Below are positions 28,872 through 44,306 of a stretch of 64,000 nucleotides of DNA, piece by piece (positions within the stretch are counted from its first letter, which is position 1; each line of letters starts with the position of its first letter). The notes beneath the pieces are model-generated. The model saw only the letters and a list, made by a program, of their open reading frames with translations. It searched no databases and was not told where the DNA came from. This DNA comes from Leptospiraceae bacterium (GTDB taxonomy: Bacteria; Spirochaetota; Leptospiria; Leptospirales; Leptonemataceae): assembly GCA_025059995.1 (NCBI GenBank), contig JANXCF010000004.1, forward strand, positions 174,020 through 238,019. The letters are read 5' to 3'. The translations under genes and the position numbers were made by a program.

Positions 28872-29052
28872 AGGTAGATGTTATCATCTTTTAATTTAAA
28901 TTTGATTGTAAACTTTTTTGTTTTTTCTGAAACTTAAAGCTTATATAACACTTAGTATATTAAGAAGAACTATCATTTATAAACGAAATCAAATTTTTAA
29001 ATTTGCGTTAAAAATCTTCGCCCTTAAAGATTTCATCATTATTTTAATTATT

Positions 29053-29874
29053 ATGGATTACATAATATTATTAGAAATTTTCATTCTTAGTTCATTAAGC
29101 ATGATGATCTCTTTTCTAGTTGGGAAAATTATTCATAATTTTGCCGTAGTAGATTTTACTTGGAGTTTTAATTTCTTTTTGATTAGTGTTTATCTTTTCA
29201 ATAAGTTAGAAGAAATCAATCCTGTTCAAGGGATTTTCTTAATTATGGTTTCCCTTTGGAGTCTTCGTTTAGCTTTCTATCTCCTTTTTGCTCGTATCAT
29301 CAACCAGCCAGAAGAAGGAAGGTATGTCCGACTTCGAGAAAGTTGGAAAGATCATCTTAATTTAAAGTTTTTTCTTTTTTATCAATTTCAAGCCCTGACG
29401 AATGTGATTCTTTCCATTCCATTTCTTTTGATCTTTTCCCAAGAAAATAGCCTTCTTTTTAACCATTACTTGGGAATATTTGTTTTTACTTTGAGCCTGA
29501 TTGGTGAGTCAATTTCTGATTTTCATTTATTTCTTTTCAAAAGGAAGCCCTCCAACCACAACAAAACCCTAAGGACGGGGCTATGGAGATACTCACGACA
29601 CCCAAATTATTTTTTTGAGTTAGGAATCTGGCTATCTTATGGAATTTATCATATGAATGCACCGTTGGGGTATTTAGGATTTCTTTCTTTTTTTATCATT
29701 TTGTATTTTATACTTTATGTAACCGGAATTCCGGCTACCGAAGAACAAAACCTCAAATCCAAAGGAAAAGAATATTTAGACTATATTGCAACAACATCTC
29801 CATTAATTCCCATGCCGCCGGCAATGTATCAAAAGTACCAAAAATGGAAATCCCTTTTTAGGAGTAAGCTATGA
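29053..29874 (+). CDS. DUF1295 membrane protein (steroid-reductase/ICMT-like)
   Basis: From the ATG at 29053, about 273 residues with seven or so membrane helices. The C-terminal part has the DUF1295/ICMT-like signature RTGLWRYSRHPNYFFELGIW followed by GIPATEEQNLKSKGKEYLDY. Homologues of this type occur with cyclopropane-fatty-acid-synthase-like enzymes in light-regulated lipid clusters. It may reduce or otherwise modify membrane lipids; the reaction is not proven. It overlaps the next methyltransferase gene by an ATGA. The frame extends upstream to a TTG at 28918, which I reject as start. Confidence 0.84.
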   Translation: MDYIILLEIFILSSLSMMISFLVGKIIHNFAVVDFTWSFNFFLISVYLFNKLEEINPVQGIFLIMVSLWSLRLAFYLLFARIINQPEEGRYVRLRESWKDHLNLKFFLFYQFQALTNVILSIPFLLIFSQENSLLFNHYLGIFVFTLSLIGESISDFHLFLFKRKPSNHNKTLRTGLWRYSRHPNYFFELGIWLSYGIYHMNAPLGYLGFLSFFIILYFILYVTGIPATEEQNLKSKGKEYLDYIATTSPLIPMPPAMYQKYQKWKSLFRSKL

Positions 29875-30890
29875 AGGATCAAGCCCACATTGCAGAGAAA
29901 TTACCTGAGTCTTTACTAAAAATCATCATCAACTACTTGAATAAAAAACGCATTCGAGAAGAAGACCTAAAAGACCTAGAAAAAAACCAAGAAAAATTCT
30001 TAAAAATAATCGATGAACTCAAAAAGTCTCCGATTGCTTTAACTCCTGAACTTGCCAATCAACAACATTATGAATTACCTTATGAATTTTTTGAACTAGT
30101 CTTAGGTAAATACAAAAAATATAGCTGTTGTTATTATGACTCACCAAATCTTTCATTGGATGAAGCAGAAAAAAAGATGTTGGATTTATATATCGAACGT
30201 GGTGAGATGAAGAATGGTCATTCAATTTTAGATCTAGGTTGTGGTTGGGGTTCTTTTTCTCTTTACATAGCTGAGAAGTTCCCTAAATCCAAAGTGGTTG
30301 CTGTAACAAACTCAAAGCTCCAGAAAGAATACATCGACAATCAAATAAAAATCCGAAAACTCAAAAATTTAAAAGTCATAAAAGCTGATATGAATGTATT
30401 TGAAACAAAACAAAAATTCGACCGAGTCATCTCTGTCGAAATGTTTGAACATATGAGAAATTACGAAAAACTTTTAGAAAAAATCTCAAGATTTATGAAC
30501 AAAAATGCAAAACTTTTCGTTCATATTTTTGCTCATCGTCAATTTCCTTACTTTTATGTGGTTCGAGATGAAACCGACTGGATGGCAAAATATTTCTTTA
30601 CAAATGGCATCATGCCATCGGCGAACTTACTCCATTATTTCCAAAAGGATTTATATATTGAAAAAGAATGGTATGTTAATGGTAGGCACTACTATTATAC
30701 ATCTTTAGCTTGGCTTCAAAATTATACGAAAAACAAAGATAAAATCCTTGAGATTTTCCGTAGAGTCTATGATGATCCCGAGTTGTGGTTGATCCGATGG
30801 AAAATTTTCTTTTTAGCTGTGGCAGAGTTTTTCAAAACTAACAAAGGAACCGAATGGTTTGTGGTTCATTATCTTTTTGCTAAGAAGTGA
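29871..30890 (+). CDS. SAM-dependent methyltransferase, CFA-synthase-like
   Basis: The 339-residue protein has the SAM motif ILDLGCGWGSFSLYIAEKFP and then VAVTNSKLQKEYI, ISVEMFEHMRNYEKLL and VHIFAHR, all typical of the cyclopropane-fatty-acyl-phospholipid synthase and plant coclaurine N-methyltransferase relatives. An AGGAG site precedes the ATG. It follows DUF1295 with a 4-bp overlap. It may methylate unsaturated lipid chains with a SAM methyl group, perhaps in concert with the DUF1295 protein. Its 3' end overlaps the convergent ammonia-lyase gene by 11 bp. Confidence 0.82.
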   Translation: MKDQAHIAEKLPESLLKIIINYLNKKRIREEDLKDLEKNQEKFLKIIDELKKSPIALTPELANQQHYELPYEFFELVLGKYKKYSCCYYDSPNLSLDEAEKKMLDLYIERGEMKNGHSILDLGCGWGSFSLYIAEKFPKSKVVAVTNSKLQKEYIDNQIKIRKLKNLKVIKADMNVFETKQKFDRVISVEMFEHMRNYEKLLEKISRFMNKNAKLFVHIFAHRQFPYFYVVRDETDWMAKYFFTNGIMPSANLLHYFQKDLYIEKEWYVNGRHYYYTSLAWLQNYTKNKDKILEIFRRVYDDPELWLIRWKIFFLAVAEFFKTNKGTEWFVVHYLFAKK

Positions 30891-32370
30891 TTTGATAAAA
30901 TTTCCTTTTCACTTTTTGAATTAAATGGCTAAGATTTTCGCTTCCAAAATGTTTGATTATATAACTAAAGTATTGATTTACTCTAAATGAAAAATGAGTT
31001 ACTTTTTGTGAATGGGTTTTTGATAAAAGTTGATTAAAATTTAAGATCACGATAAAATACGAAATCACTAAATCGAGTAGTAGATCCAGTTGTTGGTAGG
31101 TTTTTCGAACACTGAGGTTAGCCATAGGAACAATGTCTTGATTGCCTCCATTTGTAGGAACAGAATAAGTAGAATGAAAATTCCCCTTTGCCCGCAACTC
31201 CGCAATAAGAGACGATGACAAGAGCTCCAAACCTGCCAATCCAAAAGATTCTTTTGGTTCATGACTTCCCAAAAACGTAATTGGGTTTATATCAGGATAA
31301 AGCAGAGTCTTCATCAAACGTTCAATCCAAACTCCTAATTGAACCATCAAAAGATTCAACTGGTCCGATAAAAATGCTAAGTTTTGTCCGAAAAAGTTTC
31401 CCCCATGAACTACCCTATCACGTATGATTAGAGGATTATCATCAATTGAAAACAGTTCTTTTTGGAATGAAGTTGCAACATGTTGGAACTGCTCCCAGAC
31501 AGCTCCTAAGATTTGATATCCACATCGTAAAGAATATATTTCTTGTAATGGTCTTGGAAAATCTAATGATATTTGATGTTTATAAAACCTCCATAGTTCA
31601 TCTTTTTCTTTGATTAGATCATGATGCATAAAGCGATTAAGTTTCAAAAGTTCGTTATCGAAATGTTCTTCGTTCGCATTCAAAAGAATGTAATTCAAAA
31701 GAAAAAGCTCATGAATAATTTTTAATAACTCAAAAAAACGATATAAAGAAAAAAAGAAATAGGCTTTTGAAACACTTATTCCATTAATAAAACTCAATAC
31801 TTCTTTTTTATGAAGTTCTAAAACTTTTATTTGAAACTTTTTTATAAACTTTTTTGATGGATAGATTTTGTTATTTTTTTTTATGAAACTTTTAGACCTT
31901 CCAATGAGAGAATTTAGAATCATTGCTAATGGGATCAAATCCCCACTTGCTCCTAAGCTTCCTCGTTCAAAAACAACAGGAAAAGCCTTATGGTGATAAT
32001 AAAATAAAATAAAATCCAAAAACTCAGTTCTCACTCCAGAAAAACCTCTACTCATCGTTAACACACGAAAAAGCAAAGAATATTCGATAACCTCCTCTGG
32101 GATAGGGTTTCCAGTTCCTACAATCAAGTGGTCTAAAAATTCAACTGAACTCATTTGATTATCGAATTTAACAAAAGGTCCTAAGCCAGTGTGGATCCCG
32201 TAAATCTTTTGGATTTTCTCGAGCTCCAAAAACCTATAAAAAGATTCTTGGATTCTTTTTCTTTGTTCGTTTGAAATTAGGATTTCTTTTTGATTGAGGG
32301 TAGCAAGATTTTCTATGCATTCCTCATAGCGAATGTGTTCCCAGTGAAATATATCCTCAATGTTGAGCAT
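30880..32370 (-). CDS. Aromatic amino acid ammonia-lyase, predicted tyrosine ammonia-lyase
   Basis: The 496-residue protein has the MIO prosthetic-group triad Ala141-Ser142-Gly143 in ERGSLGASGDLIPLAM, Tyr57 in IYGIHTGLG as catalytic base, and NGGNQDIVPMANLSVR in place of the usual NQ(D/E)HVSM box. The substrate-selectivity pair is His81-Leu82 (FLDHLIVGTG), matching His89-Leu90 of Rhodobacter tyrosine ammonia-lyase, not the Ser-His of histidine ammonia-lyase or Phe-Leu of plant PAL. It would make p-coumarate, the chromophore precursor of photoactive yellow protein. It overlaps the photolyase gene by 14 bp in one operon behind a putative light-responsive operator. There are no hut genes nearby. 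Confidence 0.86.
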   Translation of the reverse strand: MLNIEDIFHWEHIRYEECIENLATLNQKEILISNEQRKRIQESFYRFLELEKIQKIYGIHTGLGPFVKFDNQMSSVEFLDHLIVGTGNPIPEEVIEYSLLFRVLTMSRGFSGVRTEFLDFILFYYHHKAFPVVFERGSLGASGDLIPLAMILNSLIGRSKSFIKKNNKIYPSKKFIKKFQIKVLELHKKEVLSFINGISVSKAYFFFSLYRFFELLKIIHELFLLNYILLNANEEHFDNELLKLNRFMHHDLIKEKDELWRFYKHQISLDFPRPLQEIYSLRCGYQILGAVWEQFQHVATSFQKELFSIDDNPLIIRDRVVHGGNFFGQNLAFLSDQLNLLMVQLGVWIERLMKTLLYPDINPITFLGSHEPKESFGLAGLELLSSSLIAELRAKGNFHSTYSVPTNGGNQDIVPMANLSVRKTYQQLDLLLDLVISYFIVILNFNQLLSKTHSQKVTHFSFRVNQYFSYIIKHFGSENLSHLIQKVKRKFYQITS

Positions 32371-33772
32371 ATTGTTCTACTTTTTTGAATAGCTTGAGGA
32401 CTTGTTCTTTTGAAACCTCATGATCAACGATTGGCTTGAGATAATTATTTTCATCAAAATCAGGAATCCACTTTTTAATGTATTGATAATTTGGATCAAA
32501 TTTCTTTTGTTGTAATAAGGGATTGAAAATCCGAAAGTATGGTGCCGCATCAACACCAGTTCCACTACACCATTGCCAATTTCCTACATTCGATGCCAAC
32601 TCAAAATCCATGAGTTTTTTTGCATAATACCTTTCCCCAAACTTCCAATCAATCAATAAATCCTTTACAAGAAAATTGGCACAAACCATACGAACTCGAT
32701 TGTGCTGGTATCCTGTTTCATTGAGTTCTTTCATTCCCGCATCTACGAGAGGATAGCCTGTTTCTCCACTACACCAGCGAAGAAAATCTTCTTCGGCTTT
32801 CTCGTCCAACTCAGGATTTCTCCATATATCCCTCAAGTATTGGTATTTTGGGTTCCACTCTTTATTTACTGACTCAGGGAAAAAATACAAAATCATTATA
32901 TAAAACTCACGCCAAACTAATTCTTCGATATATTTGATACTTAAATTAAAAGTTGTCTTTATGATTTCTCGAATGCTTCTTAGACCAAAGCGAAGGTGAA
33001 CACTGATTTTTGAAGTCCCACTTTCCAAAAAGGGAAAATCACGATTCTTTGCGTAGTTTTTCAATAAAACTTCATCGAGATTTGGATTAGGAAGAACATA
33101 AGAAACTTTTTGGAAATGCATTTTTTCTAATACCGGATTCGGAAATCGACCCTCATCGATGATATTTAAATCCTCGTAGATTTGATTTTGTTGCTGGAAG
33201 AGTTTTTTGAATAAATCTTTGTTTTGTTTGATCATTTCTTTGGAAATGGCAAAATTCAAAAGCTCTTGAGAAGGATAAATCTTGAGTTGTTGAAGTTCAA
33301 ACTTTTTAAACCATTGTTTTTTATACTGAGAATATACTTTGTAAGGTTCTTGTTGGGGATTTAGGATTTCTTCTTTTTCAAATATTACATGATCTTTGAA
33401 GGTGAAAACTTTTCTTTTATAACTTTTGTAAAGATTTTTTACCTTATCATCACGTTCTAATGGATAAGGTTCATAATCATGATTGAAATATAGACACTGG
33501 ATTGGAAGGATTTCTAAAATACTTTGATGAATCTTAACAGGATCACCATAAAAAACCATCAAAGATGAATTTCTTTTTTCTAATTCAGTTTTTAAAAACA
33601 AGACCCTATCAAAGATAAGGCTTACTCTTTTATCGTTGATTTCTAATTCTCCTAAAATATTTGTGTCGAAGATAAATAATAGTAATGAAGGAGTTTGAGT
33701 TTTTAAACATTCCCATAATCCTACATTATCATCCAATCGTAGGTCCCTTCGAAACCAAAATAGATTAAACAT
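32357..33772 (-). CDS. phrB: Deoxyribodipyrimidine photolyase (class I-type cryptochrome/photolyase)
   Basis: From the ATG at 33772, about 471 residues. The N-terminal DNA-photolyase fold starts FNLFWFRRDLRLDDN. The FAD-binding C-terminal half includes LVWREFYIMIL, YPLVDAGMKELNETGYQHNRVRM, and NVGNWQWCSGTGVDAAPYFR, the typical CPD photolyase block. It uses blue light to repair cyclobutane dimers. The frame continues upstream to 33859, but the conserved start FWFRRDLRL sets 33772. It heads the photolyase-ammonia-lyase operon, divergent from carH; a 31-bp dyad lies in the 111-bp gap. It may also be the light-supply or chaperone partner; no such role is visible. Confidence 0.92.
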   Translation of the reverse strand: MFNLFWFRRDLRLDDNVGLWECLKTQTPSLLLFIFDTNILGELEINDKRVSLIFDRVLFLKTELEKRNSSLMVFYGDPVKIHQSILEILPIQCLYFNHDYEPYPLERDDKVKNLYKSYKRKVFTFKDHVIFEKEEILNPQQEPYKVYSQYKKQWFKKFELQQLKIYPSQELLNFAISKEMIKQNKDLFKKLFQQQNQIYEDLNIIDEGRFPNPVLEKMHFQKVSYVLPNPNLDEVLLKNYAKNRDFPFLESGTSKISVHLRFGLRSIREIIKTTFNLSIKYIEELVWREFYIMILYFFPESVNKEWNPKYQYLRDIWRNPELDEKAEEDFLRWCSGETGYPLVDAGMKELNETGYQHNRVRMVCANFLVKDLLIDWKFGERYYAKKLMDFELASNVGNWQWCSGTGVDAAPYFRIFNPLLQQKKFDPNYQYIKKWIPDFDENNYLKPIVDHEVSKEQVLKLFKKVEQYAQH

Positions 33773-33813
33773 AAAACAAAAAAAGAAAAATTCTTTTAAT
33801 AAGTCAAAAACTT

Positions 33814-33844
33814 TTGTCGTATCTTTACAAAAAAGTTTTGACGA
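33814..33844. promoter_or_regulatory. Putative CarH-type operator (31-bp inverted repeat)
   Basis: The 31-bp window begins TTGTCGTATCTTT and ends AAAGTTTTGACGA, with the two arms forming an imperfect dyad about ACAAA. It lies in the 111-bp gap between the divergent photolyase and carH genes. It matches a second site at 40148-40178 in 25 of 31 positions by eye. The right end overlaps a putative -35 (TTGACG) for carH. An overlapping longer dyad, GTCAAAAACTTTTGT at 33803-33817 with ACAAAAAAGTTTTGAC at 33827-33842, is also present. It is the likely binding site of the MerR/B12 protein; no binding has been shown. Confidence 0.62.
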
Positions 33845-33866
33845 ATCTGATTCTTGCATTTTATTT
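33838..33866 (+). promoter_or_regulatory. Candidate promoter of carH operon
   Basis: TTGACG at 33838-33843, a 17-base spacer and TTATTT at 33861-33866 resemble a sigma-70 promoter with a poor -10. The distance to the carH ATG at 33884 fits a short leader. The -35 overlaps the right arm of the 31-bp dyad, the arrangement expected for a repressor. Confidence 0.4.
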
Positions 33867-33883
33867 TAGAAAGATATAAAGAT

Positions 33884-34693
33884 ATGAAGTACTTGATAAA
33901 GGATTTATCTAAAATGACAGGGCTTTCTCCAGCAAGAATTCGAAAGTGGCAAGAACGCTATAATATTTTAAGACCTACACAAGCTCATAATGGATATTAT
34001 TATTACGACAACGACGATTTGCGAGTTTTACTTTTCATAAAAAATCAACTTTCCAATGGGAAAACCCTCAAAGAATTACTCAACATATCTCGAGAGCAAG
34101 TATTAAATAAAAATCTCTATCTCCATGAATTCACACAAAAGGAATTAGAATTAATCAATTATATTTCAAATTATCAATACCATGAGATTCAAAAACATTT
34201 AGACTCAATTTATAAAAAGTCATTTCTAAAGTGGATAAGCGAGATTCGTAATCTTTTGATTTTAGTTGGAAGAGCTTGGGAAAAAAACTTTCTATCCGTT
34301 GCTGATGAACACAGTATTTCTAACTGGATTCGAAGTTATATTGCGAAACACCTTTTAAAAGAAATGAAATTCGAAAAACCTGTTTGGTTGGTTTGTGTAT
34401 TTCCTGGAGATACTCATGAGTTGGGGGCAATGCTACACTTTGCAAAATTGCTATATTACAAAGTTCCAGCTAAATTCGTAGGCATGTTGCCCAAGCACGA
34501 ACTATTAAGAGAAATCCGACAAAATTCATATAGAAAAATAAGTATCAGCGTCGTTTTGCCAAAAAAATGGAAAGAGTTAGAAAATCTAAGAAAAGAGATT
34601 CAGAAAATCAGCAATGCAAAGGTTTTATTTGGTGGGTATGGTTTCAAACAAACGCAAAAACCCAAAAAAACAATAAAAAACATTCGAACTTAA
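33884..34693 (+). CDS. CarH/LitR-type MerR regulator with B12-binding light sensor
   Basis: From the ATG at 33884, about 269 residues. The N-terminal MerR winged helix reads YLIKDLSKMTGLSPARIRKWQERY. The middle four-helix part has Trp132 followed by nine residues and Glu142-His143 (AWEKNFLSVADEH), the W-x9-EH motif of adenosylcobalamin-dependent CarH/LitR proteins. The Rossmann B12 domain has GDTHELG with His178 as lower cobalt ligand. In CarH, light splits the Co-C bond, the tetramer falls apart and repression ends. The residue after Trp132 is Glu, where Thermus CarH has His132, the light-state second ligand. It begins the operon for lipid-modifying genes. Confidence 0.88.
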   Translation: MKYLIKDLSKMTGLSPARIRKWQERYNILRPTQAHNGYYYYDNDDLRVLLFIKNQLSNGKTLKELLNISREQVLNKNLYLHEFTQKELELINYISNYQYHEIQKHLDSIYKKSFLKWISEIRNLLILVGRAWEKNFLSVADEHSISNWIRSYIAKHLLKEMKFEKPVWLVCVFPGDTHELGAMLHFAKLLYYKVPAKFVGMLPKHELLREIRQNSYRKISISVVLPKKWKELENLRKEIQKISNAKVLFGGYGFKQTQKPKKTIKNIRT

Positions 34694-34703
34694 GGAGTAA
34701 TAA

Positions 34704-35996
34704 ATGAAAAAGATAGCCGTTATTGGAAGTGGAATTTCAGGATTAGGTGCTGCTTACTATCTAAGCAAAGAATTCGATGTGACGATTTTCGAAAAAGAAA
34801 ATTACTTAGGAGGTCACACGAATACGATAGAAATCTCTAATGATCGAGAAGTAATCCCTGTGGACACAGGATTTATCGTCTTTAATTTTGTAACATATCC
34901 CAACCTTGTAAATCTCTTTCGAGAATTAGAGGTAGAAGCAGTTCCATCGAATATGAGCTTTTCTGTCTGGAATCAAAACAAAAACCTTTATTACTCTACT
35001 AAGAATTTCAGTACCATCTTTGCTCAAAGAAAAAATCTATTTAATCCCAGTTTCCTTATTGCCATAAAAGAGATATTAAGATTCAACAAGATTTGCTATG
35101 ACACATCTATATATGAATGGGATTATGATTTTACCTTGGGAGACTTTTTGAAGGAATATCATTTCAGCAAGAGTTTCATAGAAAACTATCTCATACCTAT
35201 GACTTCAGCCATCTGGTCGACCAACCCTGAAAAAATCTTAGAATTCCCCATCCGAACTTTGATTCAGTTTTTTAATAACCACGGATTATCAAGTATTAAT
35301 GGACAACACCAGTGGTATACTGTAAAAAATGGGTCATATAACTACATAAAAAAAATCATCAATAAAACTAAAATTCGTTATTTTCTCAATGAGCCAATAA
35401 TTTCCATCATAAGAAATTACAAAGAACAAAATGTATGGGTTCAAACGAAAAATCGGAAAGAACGCTTTGATTACGTGGTCATAGCAACTCATGCTCCTAC
35501 AGCTCTTGAGATTTTACAAGATGCAACACCAAAAGAAATAGATGTCTTACAGAACTTCAAGTATCAAAAAAACATAGCAATTCTCCACAGAGATGTAAGC
35601 GTAATGAACAAAAACAAAAAAATATGGTCTGCATGGAATTACAAAATCGGAAAGGGGAATAAAACTTCAACCACATACTATATGACTAAATTACAACCAT
35701 GGCTTAAAGAAGATATCTTCGTTTCGGTAAATGAATTTCAGGAAATCAGAGAAGAATTCATTTATAAAGTAATCGAATATGAACATCCTGTATTTGACTC
35801 CAAGGCTTTGAAAAACCAATTAAAACTTCAAGAACTCAATACCAACGGTTTAGTTTATTTTTGTGGAGCATATTTTCGTTATGGGTTTCACGAAGATGGA
35901 TTAATTTCAGCTCTTGATGTCGTTAAAAGAATCAAAACCCGTGAAAGCTTAAGAAAAAAACTAGAAGTCTATGAAGCTAAAAGAATTTCAATCTAG
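34704..35996 (+). CDS. FAD-dependent amine-oxidase-like oxidoreductase
   Basis: The 430-residue protein has the FAD fold GSGISGLGAAYYLSKEFDVTIFEKENYLGGHTNTI at the start and a FAD-end motif YFCGAYFRYGFHEDGLISAL near the C-terminus. An AAGGAG ribosome site lies just ahead. Proteins of this kind (NAD/FAD-binding, flavin amine oxidase-like) stand with DUF1365 and CFA-synthase-like genes in light-induced lipid clusters of many proteobacteria. The reaction is thought to be oxidation of membrane fatty acids; the exact product here is unknown. It overlaps the DUF1365 gene by 26 bp. Confidence 0.86.
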   Translation: MKKIAVIGSGISGLGAAYYLSKEFDVTIFEKENYLGGHTNTIEISNDREVIPVDTGFIVFNFVTYPNLVNLFRELEVEAVPSNMSFSVWNQNKNLYYSTKNFSTIFAQRKNLFNPSFLIAIKEILRFNKICYDTSIYEWDYDFTLGDFLKEYHFSKSFIENYLIPMTSAIWSTNPEKILEFPIRTLIQFFNNHGLSSINGQHQWYTVKNGSYNYIKKIINKTKIRYFLNEPIISIIRNYKEQNVWVQTKNRKERFDYVVIATHAPTALEILQDATPKEIDVLQNFKYQKNIAILHRDVSVMNKNKKIWSAWNYKIGKGNKTSTTYYMTKLQPWLKEDIFVSVNEFQEIREEFIYKVIEYEHPVFDSKALKNQLKLQELNTNGLVYFCGAYFRYGFHEDGLISALDVVKRIKTRESLRKKLEVYEAKRISI

Positions 35997-36819: not shown

Positions 36820-38077
36820 ATACAAAATCATAGAGCCTAAAACCATATCTCAAAAATTTTTTTATCATACATTAAAATACGCTAAAAATGGTGAGTTGCA
36901 TGTAGTATTGAATGATAATGAAAGATTTGTTTTCGGTGAAAAAAATGAAAAAGAGCCAGCTTTTCTATTCGTGAAAAATCCCAATTTCTTTCGAAGAGTA
37001 TTGTGGTTTGGTGATATTGGATTTGCCGAAGCCTATATGAATGGTGAATTTGAAACAAATGACCTGTACCGTTTGTTAGAGTGGTTTCTCGATAATGCTG
37101 ACTCAATACCTATCTTTGTTTTATCAAATGCTAAGAACTCACTTATTAATATCTTTGAAATTTTTAATTTTGTTCTCCATAAATTTAGAAAAAATACTTT
37201 AAAAAAATCAAAAGAAAATATTGCTTATCATTATGATTTGTCTAATGAATTCTATCAATTGATGTTAGATGAGACTTTGACTTATTCAAGTGGTATTTAT
37301 TTTCCAAACGATACAAAAAATTTAACCAGTGCACAAATATCAAAATATGAGAAAATATGTAGAAAGCTCAACCTCAAACCCTATATGCATATTTTAGAAA
37401 TAGGATCGGGTTGGGGTGGTTTTGCTAAATACGTAGCAGAAAACTATCATTGTTATGTAGATACGATTACTATTTCTGAAAAGCAATATATGTTCGTAAA
37501 AGAGTTAATTGAAAGAAATTCTCTTTCTGATAGAATACGTGTTTATTTTCTGGACTATCGTTTATTAGATCCAAAAAAATTTGGTCTGTATGATCGAGTA
37601 GTTTCAATCGAAATGGCGGAGGCTGTCGGATACGAGTACTTTCCAGAATACTTCAAAACAATAGAGAAAATGCTTAAGTCCGATGGCTTAGCATTAATAC
37701 AATATATTAATTATCCTGAGTATGCGTATAAAAAATATTTAAAAACAACGGACTTTATACAAAAATATATCTTCCCTGGTGGGCAGTTACTTTCACATTA
37801 CGAAGTTTTAAAAGCTCTTCAAGAAACTAAGCTTTGTATGTATGATTTAGAAAGTTTTGGCTTAAGCTATGCTGAAACTTTAAAGTCTTGGAGGAATAAT
37901 TTCCTGAATAACTTAGAAAAAATCAAAGCTTTAGGGTTTGATGATAAATTCATTCGAATGTGGTTGTATTACTTGATTTATTGTGAAGTAGGTTTCCGAA
38001 AAAGATATGTTAATGTAAGTCAGATTCTTCTATCAAGACCTATGAACAAAGATCTTATCGATGGTGTTTATTTCTAA
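36788..38077 (+). CDS. Cyclopropane-fatty-acyl-phospholipid synthase-like methyltransferase
   Basis: From the ATG at 36788, behind GGAGG, about 429 residues. It has the CFA layout: an N-terminal domain with VLWFGDIGFAEAYMNGEFET, then YHYDLSNEFYQLMLDETLTYSSGIYF, the SAM motif HILEIGSGWGGFAKYVAE, and RVVSIEMAEAVGYEYFPEYF. These are hallmarks of CFA synthases. In the light-induced clusters this enzyme methylates or cyclopropanates unsaturated lipid chains, perhaps as an early step to furan fatty acids that quench singlet oxygen; that is inference. It overlaps both flanking genes. Confidence 0.92.
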   Translation: MNLLKTMVQNEYKIIEPKTISQKFFYHTLKYAKNGELHVVLNDNERFVFGEKNEKEPAFLFVKNPNFFRRVLWFGDIGFAEAYMNGEFETNDLYRLLEWFLDNADSIPIFVLSNAKNSLINIFEIFNFVLHKFRKNTLKKSKENIAYHYDLSNEFYQLMLDETLTYSSGIYFPNDTKNLTSAQISKYEKICRKLNLKPYMHILEIGSGWGGFAKYVAENYHCYVDTITISEKQYMFVKELIERNSLSDRIRVYFLDYRLLDPKKFGLYDRVVSIEMAEAVGYEYFPEYFKTIEKMLKSDGLALIQYINYPEYAYKKYLKTTDFIQKYIFPGGQLLSHYEVLKALQETKLCMYDLESFGLSYAETLKSWRNNFLNNLEKIKALGFDDKFIRMWLYYLIYCEVGFRKRYVNVSQILLSRPMNKDLIDGVYF

Positions 38078-38831
38078 ATTAGGCTTTGGTCTTTTGATAT
38101 TTATGATTATTTCTAATCCCGTCTTATCACAAGTGAAGAAAAGAGAATTCTTTGGTTATGCTTTTGATTTGAAAACCAATCAATTTCTATACAAAGAAAG
38201 ATATATCGTAACCTATGAAAATCAAAGATTGACAACTATCGTTGTGATCTATACAGATATCCAGAATCAAGTAATTGGAAAAAAAGTATCTAATTACCAA
38301 AGATATCCCACTATACCTTTGTTCCAACTAGAGTACTACAGAAATGGTTACACAGAAGGTTCATTGTACGAGGACAATGGATTTCGGGTTTTTTATCAAG
38401 ACAAAGGACAACCCAAGAAAGTTTCTAAACTCTTTCCCTTTGATAGAAACATTTCATTAGACTCTGGATTACATCCTAAGATACAAATGCATTTTGATGA
38501 TCTATTAAAAGGGAAATCAATCAAGTTGAATTTTGCTGTCCCTTCTCAATTGGATATCTTGCAATTTCGACTATATAAGCAAAAAGAATGGTTTTTAAAA
38601 GAGAGAAAAACTGTAAGACTAATCTTAGAAATTGATAATTTTTTTCTTAGATTTCTCGTAGAACCAGTAATCCTCGATTATGACATACAAACAAAAGAAT
38701 TAGTTCAATACATTGGAATATCCAATTTATACGATGAAAACAATAAACCATATAAAGTAAAAATCATTTTTGACCATGAAGGAGATGGATATGATATTAC
38801 AACGAGTTCAACATATACCAAGAAATATTGA
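38061..38831 (+). CDS. Secreted hypothetical protein of the light-induced lipid cluster
   Basis: The 256-residue protein has a signal peptide (LGFGLLIFMIISNPVLSQ, cleavage about residue 24) and a beta-rich body (LTTIVVIYTDIQNQVIGKK; SIKLNFAVPSQLDILQFRLYK). It lies between the CFA-synthase-like gene and the SRPBCC gene, overlapping both. I cannot name the family, but secreted proteins of unknown function occur at this spot in such clusters (for example DUF3833 or lipocalin-like). A lipid-carrier role in the periplasm is possible. Confidence 0.72.
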   Translation: MVFISKLGFGLLIFMIISNPVLSQVKKREFFGYAFDLKTNQFLYKERYIVTYENQRLTTIVVIYTDIQNQVIGKKVSNYQRYPTIPLFQLEYYRNGYTEGSLYEDNGFRVFYQDKGQPKKVSKLFPFDRNISLDSGLHPKIQMHFDDLLKGKSIKLNFAVPSQLDILQFRLYKQKEWFLKERKTVRLILEIDNFFLRFLVEPVILDYDIQTKELVQYIGISNLYDENNKPYKVKIIFDHEGDGYDITTSSTYTKKY

Positions 38832-39234
38832 TGAAGTCTGGGATTTTTTTAGCAATCCCAGAAATTTAAAAATCATCACACCCCCTTACATGGGATTTGA
38901 TATCATAAATGAAGTGCCTGAGAAAATGTATGAAGGACTTTTGATTGAATATCGAGTATCTCCACTTCTGAACATTCCCTTAAAATGGATTTCTGAAATA
39001 TCATATATAAAAGAGAAAGAGTATTTTATTGATGAACAGAAGGTTGGTCCTTATAAATTATGGCATCATACTCATATCTTCGAGAAGAAAGATAATGGTG
39101 TTTTAATGAAAGATATTGTATATTATGAATTACCATTTTCACCAATTTCGAATATCATATTGCCATTGATTGAAAATCGATTAAAGGAAATTTTCAATTA
39201 TCGTTATAATAAGATCAAAGAACTTTTCCCATAG
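38791..39234 (+). CDS. SRPBCC (START-like) lipid or ligand-binding protein
   Basis: The ATG at 38791 has AAGGAG six bases ahead, so I take it rather than the frame start at 38770. About 147 residues start ILQRVQHIPRNIDEVWDFFSNPRNLKIITP, typical of SRPBCC cyclase/ligand-binding proteins found next to photolyase and lipid genes. Later parts have the PLKWISEISYI and LPFSPISNIILPLI stretches of the fold, with a C-terminal helix. The ligand is unknown. It overlaps the previous gene by 41 bp. It ends the carH operon; the PYP genes follow after 94 bp. Confidence 0.86.
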   Translation: MILQRVQHIPRNIDEVWDFFSNPRNLKIITPPYMGFDIINEVPEKMYEGLLIEYRVSPLLNIPLKWISEISYIKEKEYFIDEQKVGPYKLWHHTHIFEKKDNGVLMKDIVYYELPFSPISNIILPLIENRLKEIFNYRYNKIKELFP

Positions 39235-39290
39235 GAAAATTCAAAAATCCGATAAAAAAAATTTCTCTATGCTAATTTTTAAAAAAATGA

Positions 39291-39318
39291 TTGAAAAAAT
39301 TAAACTCTCAGATATAAT
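39291..39318 (+). promoter_or_regulatory. Candidate promoter of the first PYP cassette
   Basis: TTGAAA at 39291-39296, a 16-base spacer and a perfect TATAAT at 39313-39318. The expected start of RNA is about four bases ahead of the ATG at 39329, so the RNA would be nearly leaderless. AT-rich sequence makes chance matches common. No copy of the 31-bp operator is present here. Confidence 0.4.
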
Positions 39319-39328
39319 TGAAATTAAG

Positions 39329-39601
39329 ATGGATATATTAACACAACTTAATGGCAATCCAGATGCTATAAAAGAAATTATCCAAAATTTAGAAGCCCAA
39401 TTAGTGAGTTTATATGCTGAAAAAGAATACTTAGAGAAAGAAATCGGAGTATCAGATCCTGTTATCATAGTAGAAATGATAAGAAACATGGAAAAGCAAC
39501 TCATTGATCTATATAAGGAAAGACAAGAAGCTATATATATTGACACGAAAGAGATTGTGATACAAGGACCAAAAAAAATAATCGTTAGAAAAAATAGTTA
39601 G
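39329..39601 (+). CDS. PYP-associated coiled-coil protein, copy 1
   Basis: The likely start is the ATG at 39329 (90 residues), because the distance to the first helix motif then equals that in copy 2; the frame extends back to 39269. The body has two related helix motifs, NLEAQLVSLYAEKEYLEKEI and NMEKQLIDLYKERQEA, joined by DPVIIVEMI, and a beta-like basic tail IVIQGPKKIIVRK. The second protein of this type, before the other PYP, shares the plan, and a third has a related tail. I know no family for it. Position suggests a partner of the photoactive yellow protein made just downstream. Confidence 0.72.
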   Translation: MDILTQLNGNPDAIKEIIQNLEAQLVSLYAEKEYLEKEIGVSDPVIIVEMIRNMEKQLIDLYKERQEAIYIDTKEIVIQGPKKIIVRKNS

Positions 39602-39607
39602 TAGAAT

Positions 39608-40057
39608 ATGAATGAAATCAATAAATTATCAAGTTTCAGAAGTATCCACGAAAGTATCCACGAAAAAGCTGCCTTTTGGGCAAAACATCAACATAAATTC
39701 GTCAGTGATGATTTTTTAGAGAGACTAGAGGATATCAATCATAAAGAATTAGATACACAAAGTATAGGAATCATAGAAATAGATGACAAAGGTAAAATTC
39801 TATACTTTAATGATACTGAATCTAAACAAACTGGATTAAAAAAAGAACAGGTTTTGAATAAGAATTTTTTTACAGAAGTCGCAATATGCACAAATAATCT
39901 CCTATTTCGAAGTATATTTGAGCAAGGTGTATTGGACAATCATTTGAATCATTTACTTCCCTATGTTTTTACTTACAAAATGGATCCAATATTTGTAAAA
40001 ATCCATTTGTATCGAACAAAAACAAAAAGAAATTTCATCTTGATTAAGAGAGATTAA
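39608..40057 (+). CDS. pyp: Photoactive yellow protein, copy 1
   Basis: The 149-residue protein is a PAS-fold photoactive yellow protein with about 24 extra N-terminal residues. The core is IIEIDDKGKILYFNDTESKQ, then KNFFTEVAICTN with Cys94 at the p-coumarate thioester site (Cys69 of Halorhodospira PYP), and FTYKMDPIFVKIHLYR at the end. Glu71 (Glu46) and Thr75 (Thr50) are kept; Tyr42 is Phe67, Arg52 is Leu77, and Pro68 is Ile93. The chromophore should be p-coumaroyl, supplied by the ammonia-lyase and ligase of this island. The ribosome site is weak. A tandem 12-bp repeat lies in its N-terminal coding part. Confidence 0.9.
   Translation: MNEINKLSSFRSIHESIHEKAAFWAKHQHKFVSDDFLERLEDINHKELDTQSIGIIEIDDKGKILYFNDTESKQTGLKKEQVLNKNFFTEVAICTNNLLFRSIFEQGVLDNHLNHLLPYVFTYKMDPIFVKIHLYRTKTKRNFILIKRD
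39641..39664 (+). repeat. Tandem 12-bp repeat within PYP copy 1
   Basis: AGTATCCACGAA occurs twice in direct succession (39641-39652 and 39653-39664). It encodes SIHE-SIHE in the N-terminal extension, ahead of the PAS core. In-frame, so the protein is not broken. PYP copy 2 has no such repeat. Confidence 0.95.
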
Positions 40058-40147
40058 AAATACATTCAATATATTATAAAACTATCAAAACAAATCAAAA
40101 ATATAATTTTATGTTTTTTTATCAAATTCGAAAAAAATTTTCTTTTT

Positions 40148-40178
40148 TTGTCGAAACTTTATAAAAAAGTATCGACAA
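40148..40178. promoter_or_regulatory. Putative CarH-type operator upstream of the second PYP cassette
   Basis: A 31-bp dyad with arms TTGTCGAAACTTT and AAAGTATCGACAA about a 5-base centre; 12 of 13 arm positions pair. It matches the site between photolyase and carH (33814-33844) in 25 of 31 positions by eye. It lies in the 131-bp gap after PYP copy 1, 29 bp ahead of the copy-2 coiled-coil gene start I prefer. It is likely to place this cassette and the ligase under the same regulator. No -10 is convincing. Confidence 0.62.
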
Positions 40179-40206
40179 CCATTAAGAAATGTTTTTTATT
40201 TTAACT

Positions 40207-40482
40207 ATGGAAACAAAAAATTCATTTGAAGAGAGTTTATATAGAATGAAGATGAATATTGATAGTATGGAAAAACAATTGATTGATTTGTATTCAGAAA
40301 AAGAATTCTTAGAGAGAGAAATTCATACATCAAACCCAATCTTAATTGTTCACATGATTAAGAATATGGAAAGACAGTTAAAAGAACTTTATGAAGAAAA
40401 AAGAAATTATTTAGTAATTGATGCCAATCAAATCATCATTCAAGGAGCAAAGAAAATAATCATTCGTAAAAAAAGTTCATAG
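40207..40482 (+). CDS. PYP-associated coiled-coil protein, copy 2
   Basis: The ATG at 40207 gives 91 residues; an ATG at 40189 would add MFFILT. The body has SMEKQLIDLYSEKEFLEREI and NMERQLKELYEEKRNY helix motifs about a NPILIVHMI link, then the tail VIDANQIIIQGAKKIIIRKK. Over these parts it is clearly the same family as copy 1. No signal peptide or membrane helix is seen, so it should be cytoplasmic. It precedes PYP copy 2 by nine bases and so is probably translated from one RNA with it. The function is unknown. Confidence 0.72.
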   Translation: METKNSFEESLYRMKMNIDSMEKQLIDLYSEKEFLEREIHTSNPILIVHMIKNMERQLKELYEEKRNYLVIDANQIIIQGAKKIIIRKKSS

Positions 40483-40491
40483 GAGGTTTTA

Positions 40492-40932
40492 ATGGAAACT
40501 ACAAAATATCAAAATGAAATTTTGGAAAAACTTCAAAAGCAAGCAAAGTTTTGGGCTGATTCTTCCCAAAAGTTCGTTCCAGATACACTACTCGAGAATA
40601 TTGATTTCATGAACAAATCAGAGCTCGAGGATACTTCATTTGGGATAATTGAGTTAGATGATAAAGGAAGAGTAATATTCTTCAATAACACAGAGTCAAA
40701 ACTCACAGGGGTGAGCAAAGAAGAAGCAGTAGGAAAAAATTTCTTTACTGAAGTAGCACCATGCACCAACAATTTTATCTTCAAAGGAACTTTTGAAAAT
40801 GGCGTTCAAAAGAACGAGTTAAATCATCTTTTTCCTTACACATTTACATATCGTATGGCACCTACTCATGTAAAAGTCCATCTCTATCGAACTAAACAAA
40901 GAAGAAATTTTATTTTTATCCTAAGGAGATAA
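40492..40932 (+). CDS. pyp: Photoactive yellow protein, copy 2
   Basis: The 146-residue PYP has the core FGIIELDDKGRVIFFNNTE, then GKNFFTEVAPCTNN with Cys91 at the chromophore site (Cys69), and FTYRMAPTHVKVHLYR at the end. Glu68 (Glu46) and Thr72 (Thr50) are kept; Tyr42 is Phe64 and Arg52 is Val74. The VAPCT box is identical to that of Halorhodospira PYP. A strong AGGAGG lies five bases ahead of the ATG, stronger than for copy 1, so this copy may be the more abundant. It is followed by the ligase gene after 1 bp. Confidence 0.94.
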   Translation: METTKYQNEILEKLQKQAKFWADSSQKFVPDTLLENIDFMNKSELEDTSFGIIELDDKGRVIFFNNTESKLTGVSKEEAVGKNFFTEVAPCTNNFIFKGTFENGVQKNELNHLFPYTFTYRMAPTHVKVHLYRTKQRRNFIFILRR

Positions 40933-40933
40933 A

Positions 40934-42394
40934 ATGTTCTTTGACGTCGATATATATCATCATAGTTTGAACTGGATGAACCCATGGAGAAATATTCTCT
41001 TTGATCTATTAAAGTATAAAAGTAATCCTATTTTGATAACGAAAGAAACTATATACACAGCCGATTCTCTTTGGACCTTAAGTCGGCTGTGGAAAGAGCT
41101 TCTTGCTAAATTTTCACTAAAAAAAGGAGATACTATCTTACTTCACCTTCCAAAAAGTGAGCATCTATTAGCGAATATTATCAACGGTCTTTTCCAAAGT
41201 TATCCTCTGATTTTAGCCAATCCAAAATGGGATTTATGGGAAATCAAAAAACAAACAAATCCAAAGATTATCATCACAGACAAAAATAACTTTGAATATT
41301 TTTCTCATTTCATGAAAGAAAAACAATATGAGTTTATTCGTGTTTTAAACCAAGACTTTGTAATCATACATCTTCCAGAAGGAAATAATATTGAAGAAGT
41401 AGTTTTTTTTCTAAGGACTTCTGGAACTCATTCACCAAAATGGATTGGTTTAACTAACCGTGAAATTTTTTTTAATATTAATGTTCATAGTAAAATATTC
41501 GAGGAATATTCGATAGTTCTTTCTATCCTTCCTTGGTTCCATTCTTTTGGATTGATCTTGGATTTACTTTCTACTTTTCTAAAAAAGTCATATATTATCA
41601 TTGATGAAAATCATGGAAAAGACATTGAATATATTGACTTCCTTTTTGAAAAGTTTTTGTTCCGCCACTTAAGCATGGTTCCTCTCACGTTAGAAAAACT
41701 AATAGAAAATGGGTATGAATCTATTTTATTTCACCTAAATTCAGGAATTATCGGCGGAGCAAAAATTCCTTCGAAATATTTACCTCTACTAAAAAATACA
41801 AAACTAAGAGTTGGTTATGGTCAAACAGAAGCAGGACCAGGCATTAGCATTGGAGAACCTGGAGATTGGGAAAATAATTATGTTGGTAGAATTCTATGTG
41901 ATGTAATGATTTCTGAAGATGGCGAAATCCTATATCATGGCGATAATGTGTACCAATATGAATTAAAAGATGGAAGTATTATAAAATACGATTCCAATCG
42001 TTGGGTTTCCTCAGGAGACTTGGGTTTTCTTATCGACGATCGATTGTATTACGAAGGAAGAAAATCATATATTTTTAAATTGAAAAATGGCAGGTGGTTC
42101 AATCCATTATTAATAGAAGAGCAAATCAAAAGAGAATATCAAATCGACCATTGTATTATCTTGAATGATAACCACGTCGGTTTGATTGTTATTTTTTCTA
42201 ATGATATAAGAACAACTTATCTAATTCCCTTGATTGAAAAAACGCTTTTGTATGCTATTCGTCCATACATAAAAGCTATAATAACGATACAGAAAGAAGA
42301 ATTTTTTAAAACAAACAAGGGAGATTATGACCGATTAAAAATCTATAAATATGTTGTAGGACGATATGGATTACATGATTACCGAGTTAAATGA
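40934..42394 (+). CDS. p-Coumarate:CoA ligase-like ANL enzyme (PYP chromophore activation)
   Basis: The 486-residue ANL-superfamily protein has the P-loop RTSGTHSPK (161-169), LPWFHSFGLILDLLS, GGAKIPSKYLPLL, YGQTEAG (295-301) and SSGDLGF with Asp362. The C-terminal A10 motif is KTNKGDYDR, so Asp464 replaces the normal adenylation Lys (usual KT-x-x-GK). It stands directly after PYP copy 2, where the PYP-linked coumarate-CoA ligase is found in other bacteria. CoA-activated p-coumarate would be transferred to the PYP cysteine. Its 3' end overlaps the tail-protein gene by 29 bp. Confidence 0.84.
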   Translation: MFFDVDIYHHSLNWMNPWRNILFDLLKYKSNPILITKETIYTADSLWTLSRLWKELLAKFSLKKGDTILLHLPKSEHLLANIINGLFQSYPLILANPKWDLWEIKKQTNPKIIITDKNNFEYFSHFMKEKQYEFIRVLNQDFVIIHLPEGNNIEEVVFFLRTSGTHSPKWIGLTNREIFFNINVHSKIFEEYSIVLSILPWFHSFGLILDLLSTFLKKSYIIIDENHGKDIEYIDFLFEKFLFRHLSMVPLTLEKLIENGYESILFHLNSGIIGGAKIPSKYLPLLKNTKLRVGYGQTEAGPGISIGEPGDWENNYVGRILCDVMISEDGEILYHGDNVYQYELKDGSIIKYDSNRWVSSGDLGFLIDDRLYYEGRKSYIFKLKNGRWFNPLLIEEQIKREYQIDHCIILNDNHVGLIVIFSNDIRTTYLIPLIEKTLLYAIRPYIKAIITIQKEEFFKTNKGDYDRLKIYKYVVGRYGLHDYRVK

Positions 42395-42866
42395 GTTTGA
42401 AGTAACATTAAAACAAGATATAGCAAGAAATTATAAAAATCTATCATTTGACTATGATAATTTTATTACAAAAATGAAAAAAGACATTGAAAATATAATT
42501 AACGATGCTTTATCTACCGACGAAATTAAAATCCATCTTGCATTGCAATATAATATCTTGAAATCAAAGTGGATAATTTTAAATAATCGAATACAAAGTC
42601 ATAACTTGAGATATGGAACCGTCCATGAGGAATTGGTTATGAAGGCTTACATCATGAGCCAGTTTATTGGTTTTATTGAGAAATACCTCGAACTAACTCA
42701 AAAGAAATCTATAGATACATTTCTTTCTAATTATAATGAGATTCTAAATGCCAGCTTATTTTTGGTTACCTTAAACCACAATGATCTCATCATTGAGCCA
42801 AAAGAAATCAAAATCTTTGAACCCAAAAAGGTTGTTATAAAAAAGAGAAATAAACAAAGAAGCTAA
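42366..42866 (+). CDS. Helical protein with PYP-partner-like C-terminal tail
   Basis: The 166-residue protein is largely helical through about residue 140, then ends in LIIEPKEIKIFEPKKVVIKKRNK. That end resembles the tails of the two coiled-coil proteins (xIDxxxIxIQGxKKIIxRK) with shared spacing and basic end, though with more changes. The N-terminal part is unlike theirs. It overlaps the ligase gene by 29 bp, so it is probably on the same transcript. No family is known to me. A second ATG at 42375 is possible. Confidence 0.7.
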   Translation: MDYMITELNEFEVTLKQDIARNYKNLSFDYDNFITKMKKDIENIINDALSTDEIKIHLALQYNILKSKWIILNNRIQSHNLRYGTVHEELVMKAYIMSQFIGFIEKYLELTQKKSIDTFLSNYNEILNASLFLVTLNHNDLIIEPKEIKIFEPKKVVIKKRNKQRS

Positions 42867-42911
42867 AAAATTGCAATATTTCATTATCAATCTTTAAATA
42901 ACCCAAAATCC

Positions 42912-44306
42912 ATGGCAAAATTTAATTATATTCTTTTGGGTTTTGCAGAATTAGGTTTCTTTTTCGTAGAAATTATAATTCGACTCTATCTCTTAAAATA
43001 TTATACTGATGAGATAAAACTCGATCCGAAATTAGCAGGTATTGCGATTTCAATATCCCTTCTTTGGGATGCTATATCCGATCCTCTTATGGGCTATATT
43101 TCTGATCATTTTCCTTTGGTGATAAGGACTAAAAATCAAGTTTGGAAGAAGAAGCGTGTTTTTTACATGATTCTGGGGTCTCTTTTTACTTCTTTATTTT
43201 TTATCGTTCTATTTCTGGATTTTATAAAAGAAAGAAGCCAAGTTGAGAAATTTTTTTACTTGTTAGTTAATTATTTCTTTCTTAATACATTTCTGACCAT
43301 TATGTCCGTTCCGCATTCAGCTCTTTGCAGTGAAGCTTCTATTAATCCCAATGATAGAAATTGGATTTTTGGATTTCGATTAATTTGGGGAAATATTGGA
43401 TTGATTTTGGGGATTCTTCTTCCCACTTATTTTTCCTTGAATCAAGAAGGTGTGATAAAAAATATTTTATTTGCAGCAGTAATTCTTATAAGTGTGTGGG
43501 TATCATCTTTAGTTGGTTTTCAGCTTGATACACACGAAAAAACTTTTACTCCAAAATCTTATTTTTTTGATGTTTTTCGAACAACTAAATTTCTACTAAA
43601 AAACCAATATCTTTTTGTTTTGGTGCTCAGCTATTTTATCGCTTTTGTGGGTATCGGGATCAACTCTGCTATTGCGTTGTTCTATTATGAATATACTCTA
43701 AAGTTTTCAGAACAAGAAACGTCTCTTATTCTTTTAGTATTTTTGTTGGTTTGGACCTTTTCAGTTCCTGTTTGGATTTGGTTAGCCAAAAGATTTGAAA
43801 AAAAACACTTAATTCTTTTAGCTATTTTTTCATTAGGTTTGGGAACTGTTCTTGGGTATCCCAATTTTCCAGAAAGAGATTTGATCTACCCTTTGATTGC
43901 TTCTGTGGTTGGAGGTATCCTTGCAGCAAGTATTGTTCTAATGGATACTTTGATTGCTGATTTAACTAATTACGATTTCGTGAAATTAAGATTTCGAGAA
44001 AAACGAGATGGCTTATTTTTTGGATTTCTAAAAATGATCATTAAAGTTTCTCGAGCTGTTTCTATTTTGATCTCAAGTTTTGCTTTGGGTTTTATTGGTT
44101 TTCATGAGAATCCCTTATCTTTTGAAGTCTCAAGAAACATATCTTATATTTTTGGATATGGAGTGGGATTCTTTTTGATTTTGTCGTCGTTAGTTTTTTT
44201 GAGTTTTGATTATGATAGCAAAAAACACGAAAAGGTGATTCGGATTATACAAACTTACCAAAAGCTGAAAGAAGCTCCCCAAAACCTTTCCAAATCAATA
44301 GTTTAA
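42912..44306 (+). CDS. MFS/GPH-type transporter
   Basis: The 464-residue protein has twelve membrane helices. Its N-terminus YYTDEIKLDPKLAGIAISISLLWDAISDPLMGYISD matches the glycoside-pentoside-hexuronide (MelB-like) branch of the major facilitator superfamily. An MFS protein of this kind is often part of the photolyase/CFA light cluster. It may move a lipid or sugar; the substrate is unknown. It comes 45 bp after the helical tail gene and may be co-transcribed with it. Confidence 0.83.
   Translation: MAKFNYILLGFAELGFFFVEIIIRLYLLKYYTDEIKLDPKLAGIAISISLLWDAISDPLMGYISDHFPLVIRTKNQVWKKKRVFYMILGSLFTSLFFIVLFLDFIKERSQVEKFFYLLVNYFFLNTFLTIMSVPHSALCSEASINPNDRNWIFGFRLIWGNIGLILGILLPTYFSLNQEGVIKNILFAAVILISVWVSSLVGFQLDTHEKTFTPKSYFFDVFRTTKFLLKNQYLFVLVLSYFIAFVGIGINSAIALFYYEYTLKFSEQETSLILLVFLLVWTFSVPVWIWLAKRFEKKHLILLAIFSLGLGTVLGYPNFPERDLIYPLIASVVGGILAASIVLMDTLIADLTNYDFVKLRFREKRDGLFFGFLKMIIKVSRAVSILISSFALGFIGFHENPLSFEVSRNISYIFGYGVGFFLILSSLVFLSFDYDSKKHEKVIRIIQTYQKLKEAPQNLSKSIV

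Follow-up and report, generated by a model that had tools for sequence, protein, structure and literature searches.

The window analysed here is a 64,000-nucleotide (nt) stretch of contig JANXCF010000004.1 from an uncultured Leptospiraceae bacterium whose genome comprises 2.38 Mb in 17 contigs. It contains a light-response cluster in which genes for two photoactive yellow proteins (PYPs) and their pigment lie close to a gene for a CarH-type regulator, and a palindrome shared by the two parts suggests that CarH probably controls both. All of the genes named in the first-pass annotation were found, between 28918 and 44306, and the open reading frames (ORFs) there match the expected families in Pfam, NCBIfam and the PDB. 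The run begins on the forward strand with a DUF1295 membrane reductase-like gene (28918..29874, likely start 29053; PF06966, E=2.5e-53) and CFA1, which encodes a cyclopropane-synthase-like methyltransferase (29871..30890; PF02353, E=8.6e-41). Two genes on the reverse strand overlap each other by 14 nt: an aromatic amino-acid lyase, likely a tyrosine ammonia-lyase (TAL; 30880..32370; PF00221, E=7.4e-83), and a DNA photolyase (32357..33859, likely start 33775; PF03441/PF00875). The remaining genes are on the forward strand. The CarH-type MerR/B12 regulator (33884..34693, in an ORF that opens at 33854; NCBIfam CarH, E=5.4e-21) is followed by an FAD-dependent oxidoreductase of the amine-oxidase type (FADox; 34704..35996; PF01593, E=3.3e-17), a DUF1365 protein (35971..36819; PF07103, E=1.4e-62), a second cyclopropane-synthase-like protein, CFA2 (36773..38077; PF02353, E=8.8e-79), a putative secreted-looking protein (38061..38831) and a protein putatively named SRPBCC-like (38770..39234). 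The last two have no Pfam match; homologues of the former occur in carH clusters across the class, and the latter is kept in carH clusters (44-46% in genus g4, of the same family).

The PYP genes lie at the far end of the run. They consist of coil1 (39269..39601), PYP1 (39608..40057; TIGR02373, E=2.9e-25), coil2 (40189..40482; the database version has 71 amino acids and the true start may be downstream), PYP2 (40492..40932; TIGR02373, E=2.7e-31), an AMP-binding ligase that is likely a p-coumarate:CoA ligase (40934..42394; PF00501, E=2.3e-16) and adjoins PYP in g4 and f3 genomes, and coil3 (42366..42866). An MFS_2 transporter gene (42912..44306; PF13347, E=1.8e-49) closes the run and is also present in the carH cluster of congeners, of g4 and of relatives without PYP. 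The first-pass annotation did not note the three small coil proteins, none of which has an above-cut-off Pfam match; coil1 and coil2 were recognized by a coil alignment with a PYP-specific distribution.

A conserved palindrome was found by aligning the gap between carH and the photolyase gene of the window with four other genomes. The pattern has two occurrences in the window, which are also the only two of the whole genome. The first copy, predicted CarH operator 1 (33814..33843, forward strand), lies in the divergent promoter region between photolyase-TAL and carH. The second, predicted operator 2 (40148..40178, forward strand), is a near-perfect palindrome upstream of coil2-PYP2-ligase-coil3-MFS_2. 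The search lists three matches, the third being the second site on the opposite strand, and there is no third copy in the window or genome at up to three mismatches. One hundred shuffles of the window yield no match (expected 0.00). Site 33814 overlaps a -35-like TTGACG (33838) and site 40148 overlaps a TCGACA hexamer that is positioned in the same way, so repression would most naturally work by covering the -35 region. Taken as a whole, the general scan for promoters gave no excess over shuffles.

A matrix was built from nine sites, all of them from carH promoters or carH-operon heads of other genomes. It ranks 40148 (23.5) and then 33814 (22.0) as the top sites in the 64 kb, in comparison with a null maximum that averaged 14.2 and reached 21.2 at its highest in 60 simulated windows. 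The matrix also detects sites at the operon heads of g4, including loci L035, L060 and L187, which are outside the training set, and a further one ahead of the coil-PYP-ligase-TAL operon of G048. The matrix scan covered eleven Leptospirae PYP loci (L034, L035, L048, L050, L051, L054-L057, L059 and L060); the other Leptospirae PYP genomes were covered by the class-wide pattern search only.

The class-wide search of 48 genomes gives 98 matches at up to two mismatches, against 31 for a reversed control, and the excess is in genomes with carH. At up to one mismatch, a cut that was picked after the match list had been viewed, matches are present in 16 of 28 carH genomes and in none of 20 without carH (p=1.3e-5, kinship uncorrected). 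These matches represent 25 distinct sites, 19 of which could be placed. Eight stand before carH, four precede BLUF genes (G172, G193, G202 and G220), two precede PYP operons (the window and G048) and two precede the MFS_2/cyclase pair of the carH cluster (G062 and G179). Single sites lie before genes that read as a putative FADox (G208), DUF1295-CFA1 (G156) and a uvrA-like gene (G085). The six unplaced sites are in G055, G048:C3, G156:C173, G172:C81, G110:C398 and G202:C315; those in G202:C315 and G110:C398 (loci L234 and L235) lie beside genes for proteins of 827-829 amino acids whose starts resemble putative cyclic-nucleotide-binding proteins. The copy before the uvrA-like gene of G085 has no mismatch and is directly upstream (L231, site 3487; G085:C7:178986). 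This suggests that excision repair is part of the predicted CarH regulon in G085. No site was found at the uvrA-like gene beside the window cluster (26085-28871).

In G048 a site without mismatch is directly upstream of a coil-PYP-ligase-TAL operon that lies on a contig other than that of carH. In G125 a two-mismatch site is directly upstream of the coil-PYP operon, again on a contig other than that of carH. Two-mismatch sites also precede DUF1295 in G062 and G137. In G148, carH and a divergent BLUF gene have a site between them, and the matrix places one in the same position in G208.

The regulator is a candidate class I CarH-type protein and is predicted to be a B12-photoreceptor repressor. 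Its N-terminus is a MerR helix-turn-helix (PF13411, E=6.6e-15). Alignment with 5c8d and 3whp, which we take to be structures of Thermus thermophilus CarH, and with 16 relatives shows that the positions of W131, E141-H142 and the B12 ligand H177 (presumably Thermus numbering) are retained; among the relatives, L193 lacks a W in that column and L192 has N in place of H142. A gene for a cobalamin adenosyltransferase was also found, and CheW domains gave eight matches. In its MerR head and in these residues of a putative B12-binding part the window protein is like the Thermus protein, but it is distant from it (62 bits), and it is predicted to act on genes for repair, lipids and photoreceptors and not on carotenoid genes, which we take to be the targets in Thermus.

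The congeners G062 and G179 carry DUF1295-CFA1, a photolyase gene divergent from carH, the run FADox-DUF1365-CFA2-unknown-SRPBCC and, further on, MFS_2. Their cluster contains no TAL, coil, PYP or ligase gene. TAL is missing at the equivalent position (loci L180 and L181), and the photolyase gene abuts CFA1 where the window has TAL. The slot of coil1-PYP1-coil2-PYP2-ligase-coil3 is occupied by a gene for a fusion of BLUF and class III cyclase (L180:14902-16050, with BLUF and Guanylate_cyc by Pfam; L181:3887-4933) and by a second cyclase gene with DUF5939; Pfam was run on the G062 copies and the G179 BLUF came from a separate BLUF search. In G085, the third congener, the cluster is reduced. BLUF is present in all three congeners and there is no BLUF match in the window genome. 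On this comparison, the PYP kit of the window sits within a carH cluster that other genomes have without the kit.

In g4 the kit and the carH cluster form a single run of 12 genes in the same direction: MFS_2-cyclase-carH-FADox-DUF1365-CFA2-coil-PYP-ligase-coil3-TAL-SRPBCC. The run is complete in G133, G168 and G184, extends to the ligase gene at a contig end in G196 and is divided between contigs in G205; gaps in G184 reach 54 nt at most. Pfam identifies the cyclase, as a DUF5939-cyclase, in G184 alone, and an ORF of similar length lies there in G133 and G168. Predicted operator sites stand at the heads of these operons. The order from carH to SRPBCC is shared with the window at 24-55% protein identity, with TAL and the SRPBCC-like gene in different positions, and by this measure the likeness is more than chance. 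ORFs with more than 20 X were dropped in the gene-neighbourhood comparisons, and in one of them a display filter hid CFA2, FADox and MFS2 matches below 60 bits. The idea that the PYP kits of the window and g4 are sister copies was rejected: in the PYP tree they fall in separate supported clades with an unresolved backbone, and the tree neither unites the two sources nor firmly parts them.

Both PYPs score under the TIGR02373 cut-off of 143 bits (88.8 for PYP1 and 108.2 for PYP2), as do those of each of the 16 Leptospirae genomes with PYP. The best PDB match of PYP2 is a PYP, 1otd (E=5e-26). The columns of the chromophore Cys69 and of Glu46 are invariant or nearly so in the PYP alignment, and both window proteins keep these residues and T50. 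PYP1 has the replacements Y42F, R52L and P68I, and PYP2 has Y42F and R52V (residue numbers are, we assume, those of the Halorhodospira protein). The absence of Tyr42 does not exclude PYP identity because, according to the available text of PMC9664959, Y42F occurs in about 9% of PYPs, where it is linked to a red shift. The PYP1 branch is long (0.85, against 0.12 for PYP2), and this divergence, with Cys69 and Glu46 retained, suggests a changed role. The aromatic lyase contains the ASG that forms the methylidene-imidazolone (MIO) group (SLGASGDLIPLA). It also has a His-Leu pair, which we take to be the TAL-type selectivity pair; this is shared with seven of ten aligned relatives, all seven from Leptospirae, and is replaced by YH or FH in three from other spirochaete families. 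The lyase is likely a TAL and the AMP-binding (ANL) enzyme likely a p-coumarate:CoA ligase.

The coil proteins accompany PYP closely. Units of the form 'ExQLxxLYxEKExLExE' (LYxEKE repeats) build up coil1 and coil2, both of which close with a GPKKIIVRK-like C-terminal tail. coil3, whose tail is similar, is helical, with five helices in its structure model (mean predicted local distance difference test score, pLDDT, 84.7). The coil alignment matches 16 of 392 genomes of the phylum, which are exactly the 16 Leptospirae genomes with true PYPs, and none of the other 376, including seven with high-scoring PYPs of another type. We therefore reject the idea that the match is to any coiled coil, as those 376 genomes surely contain other coiled coils. 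coil3 is found in 13 of the 16 and nowhere else in the phylum. Weak matches away from PYP were given by coil in G205:C70 (E=5.3e-4) and by coil3 in G168:C19 (E=1.9e-4), and a coil2 query returned only itself.

Beyond the phylum, a coil (at least 25 bits) lies within 300 nt of PYP in 46 of 79 named PYP loci from many phyla, and is fused to PYP at 15-39 bits in a further five. Only one non-adjacent hit of at least 25 bits was found among 7370 ORFs of these loci. Hits below 25 bits were not counted as adjacent, and L125, with no separate PYP call, was scored as 'none'. The named loci share contigs with the 16 genomes (for example L061-L067, L069, L074, L096, L113 and L139) and are therefore not independent of them. 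Coil-PYP fusions occur in Bdellovibrionota (L078, L094, L101 and L126; by eye also L088, L110, P0011 and P0032) and in L097, and a coil3-coil fusion occurs in G190. In the model of a natural fusion, P0027, the PYP part has high confidence and the coil forms two helices (pLDDT about 67-75). coil3 forms the C-terminus of proteins of 684-731 amino acids encoded directly upstream of PYP (L077, L078, L088, L094, L101, L110 and L126); the three that were scanned (L077, L088 and L101) all have HATPase_c, and two also have Hpt. It forms the N-terminus of proteins of 481-486 amino acids, of which two of five have weak CheW matches and three of five none. The fusions suggest partnership.

In Salinivenus and its relatives, coil-repeat proteins of 350-1225 amino acids are encoded ahead of PYP, and in those of L068, L081 and L086 the final domain is PYP-like and lacks the chromophore Cys69. 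Seven such genes, from Salinivenus and other genomes labelled Bacteroidota (L081, L085, L086, L095, L099, L106 and L115), encode proteins of 547-1225 amino acids and lie directly before PYP. Two Bdellovibrionota loci have CarH-like genes divergent from the PYP-kinase operon (L077:5919-6830 and L088:5913-6779) with the W, E-H and H residues kept; L077 has a putative CheY-like gene downstream, and no convincing palindrome was found at either locus. High-scoring PYPs are present in other spirochaete families (L041-L047), with a divergent lyase gene beside six of the seven, and there is no coil or carH within the stretches taken. By gene content, these represent a different PYP system within the phylum.

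These data lead us to propose that CarH likely represses the photolyase and lipid-remodelling genes together with the PYP kit in the dark and releases all of them in the light. The same palindrome precedes carH and coil2-PYP2 and therefore B12 light sensing would likely switch on the second sensor. CarH with adenosylcobalamin would bind the palindrome in the dark and let go in the light. At operator 1 this would govern leftward transcription of the photolyase and TAL genes and a single rightward transcript from carH through PYP1, where the largest gap is 34 nt; at operator 2 it would govern transcription of coil2-PYP2-ligase-coil3-MFS_2. The p-coumaroyl-CoA for both PYPs would come from TAL and the ligase. 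On excitation, PYP would pass its signal via the LYxEKE coils to coil3, and the next recipient would probably be a CheA/CheW system, a step that is proposed because Bdellovibrionota have fusions of coil3 to CheA-like kinases and of coil to PYP. Control would thus have two tiers: CarH would report the long-term presence of light, and PYP, made only then, would report fast changes in blue light.

Control by CarH has to be weighed against two other accounts of the locus. The PYP kit could merely have landed in the carH cluster and be expressed from a promoter of its own, with no shared control. The eight of 16 Leptospirae PYP genomes in which no link to carH was found would fit this, as would the different placing of the TAL and PYP genes in the window and g4. 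However, one palindrome serves carH and coil2-PYP2 and no third place in the genome, a second genus has the linkage inside one predicted operon, and sites precede PYP operons that are not linked to carH in G048 and, more weakly, in G125; we therefore regard a chance landing as improbable. The palindrome could instead be bound by a regulator other than CarH that co-controls PYP and the light cluster. The site is indeed unlike TGTACA-N12-TGTACA, the box given for Pseudomonas class II LitR in the available text of PMC9758184, and the six unplaced close sites could belong to such a factor. That close sites are confined to carH genomes, with eight of the 25 located at carH and a further 11 at genes of the cluster, of repair or for photoreceptors, makes another regulator a poor prospect.

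A separate question is whether coil and coil3 are signal partners at all. Their genes adjoin those for PYP, ligase or TAL, and this is also what would be expected of factors for the loading or stability of PYP. Such a role is rather doubtful: coil3 forms the C-terminus of CheA-like proteins with Hpt and HATPase domains and the N-terminus of the proteins with weak CheW matches, and the PYP-like domains at the ends of the L068, L081 and L086 coil-repeat proteins lack Cys69 and need no loading.

A number of observations weigh against control of PYP by CarH, or against parts of the circuit. No CarH site or linkage was found in the eight PYP genomes mentioned above, and five of them lack carH, so PYP does not need CarH. 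(One of the eight, G181, has a contig that begins 63 nt before the coil gene, and G205, where the contig ends, is counted neither among the eight nor among the genomes with a link.) A general tracking of carH presence by PYP was rejected (Fisher p=0.36 in 48 genomes, with the weak carH matches of G217 and G145 taken as negative and the partial ones of G125 and G160 as positive; the same calls define the 28 and 20 genomes given above). The B12-binding Pfam match of the regulator is weak (PF02310, 19.8 bits against a cut-off of 32.1), and it scores 75 bits with the NCBIfam CarH model, for which the curated cut-off is 400. The matrix null is a first-order model, and three of the nine training sites scored poorly on leave-out, two of them having been entered with the register off by one base. 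With two mismatches allowed, the class-wide pattern comes close to background, as the 20 genomes without carH give 22 matches against 17 for the control, and it adds a site within an ORF of the window genome (G000:C4:99611); the G125 site is weak by itself because this background is appreciable. The specificities of TAL and ligase are assigned from motifs and gene context. Structure searches with coil3 gave no informative match, and coil3 lies away from PYP, on another contig or at about 10 kb, in G040, G125 and G156. Taken together, gating of PYP by CarH is the reading with the best support for the window organism, for g4 and for G048, and less surely for G125, as judged from predicted sites and gene order.

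A wider version of the proposal would see the carH cluster as a cascade with a plug-in slot, in which CarH, acting through the one conserved palindrome, permits a second photoreceptor whose kind varies with the lineage, and would see coil and coil3 as the missing chain from PYP to CheA in several phyla. We give this about an even chance. The genomes concerned are those with a PYP kit (the window, g4, G048 and G125) and those with a BLUF-cyclase (G062, G179, G148, G172, G208, G193, G202 and G220). The BLUF-cyclases of spirochaetes (BLUF with Guanylate_cyc) are like the window PYPs in being found, in sister genomes, within the carH cluster or at the same type of site; unlike PYP, they are flavin receptors with a cyclase output of their own.

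The first-pass annotation had claimed that a B12-based regulator controls both the chromophore supply and PYP, and that no system joining the two had been described. The first claim gains in silico support from the palindrome, which is found at carH/photolyase-TAL and at coil2-PYP2 only, and further support from the operon fusion in g4 and from the G048 and G125 sites on contigs without carH. The second agrees with the literature on PYP with CarH or LitR, which in the text available shows no such system. The main text of PMC12826048, as available, contains no MerR, cyclopropane, photolyase or 'coiled', with 'coiled-coil' counted once in the full text, and the available text of PMC9664959 contains neither MerR nor 'coiled'. 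Pseudomonas mendocina offers a looser precedent, with a class II LitR next to a LOV sensor (PMC9758184). From the text available of that paper, LitR of P. putida and P. mendocina is like the predicted window repressor in being of MerR type; it represses light-induced genes, among them photolyase and the furan-fatty-acid gene ufaM, and the P. mendocina regulator has a further photoreceptor, short LOV, as its neighbour. However, the Pseudomonas regulator is of class II and thought unable to bind B12, whereas the window regulator keeps the B12-ligand residues, and the LOV protein acts upstream by inhibiting LitR, whereas the window PYP is a predicted target, the reverse direction. The pyp operon of Halorhodospira halophila (pyp, pCL and TAL) likewise has ligase and TAL close to PYP, and its description, in the text available, is without CarH, coil or coil3; only seven of the 113 pyp operons surveyed there have TAL (PMC12826048). 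Leptospira clade B PYPs, from hosts that are related by description, lie beside sensor-less chemoreceptors, and chemotaxis is their proposed output; the account available names no coil, coil3 or CarH, and unlike those loci the window cluster includes no chemoreceptor gene (PMC9664959).

The signal output of single-domain PYPs is stated as an open gap in the available texts of PMC12826048 and PMC9664959. The coil and coil3 proteins, of which the first is fused to PYP and the second to CheA-like kinases in some phyla, are named candidates for the partners in PYP signalling. The predicted operators turn the guess that B12 controls PYP into one that is testable on two 30-bp sites. If it is true, nature would have a circuit with one light receptor controlling the synthesis of a second, faster one, and with a BLUF-cyclase in the place of PYP in sister genomes.

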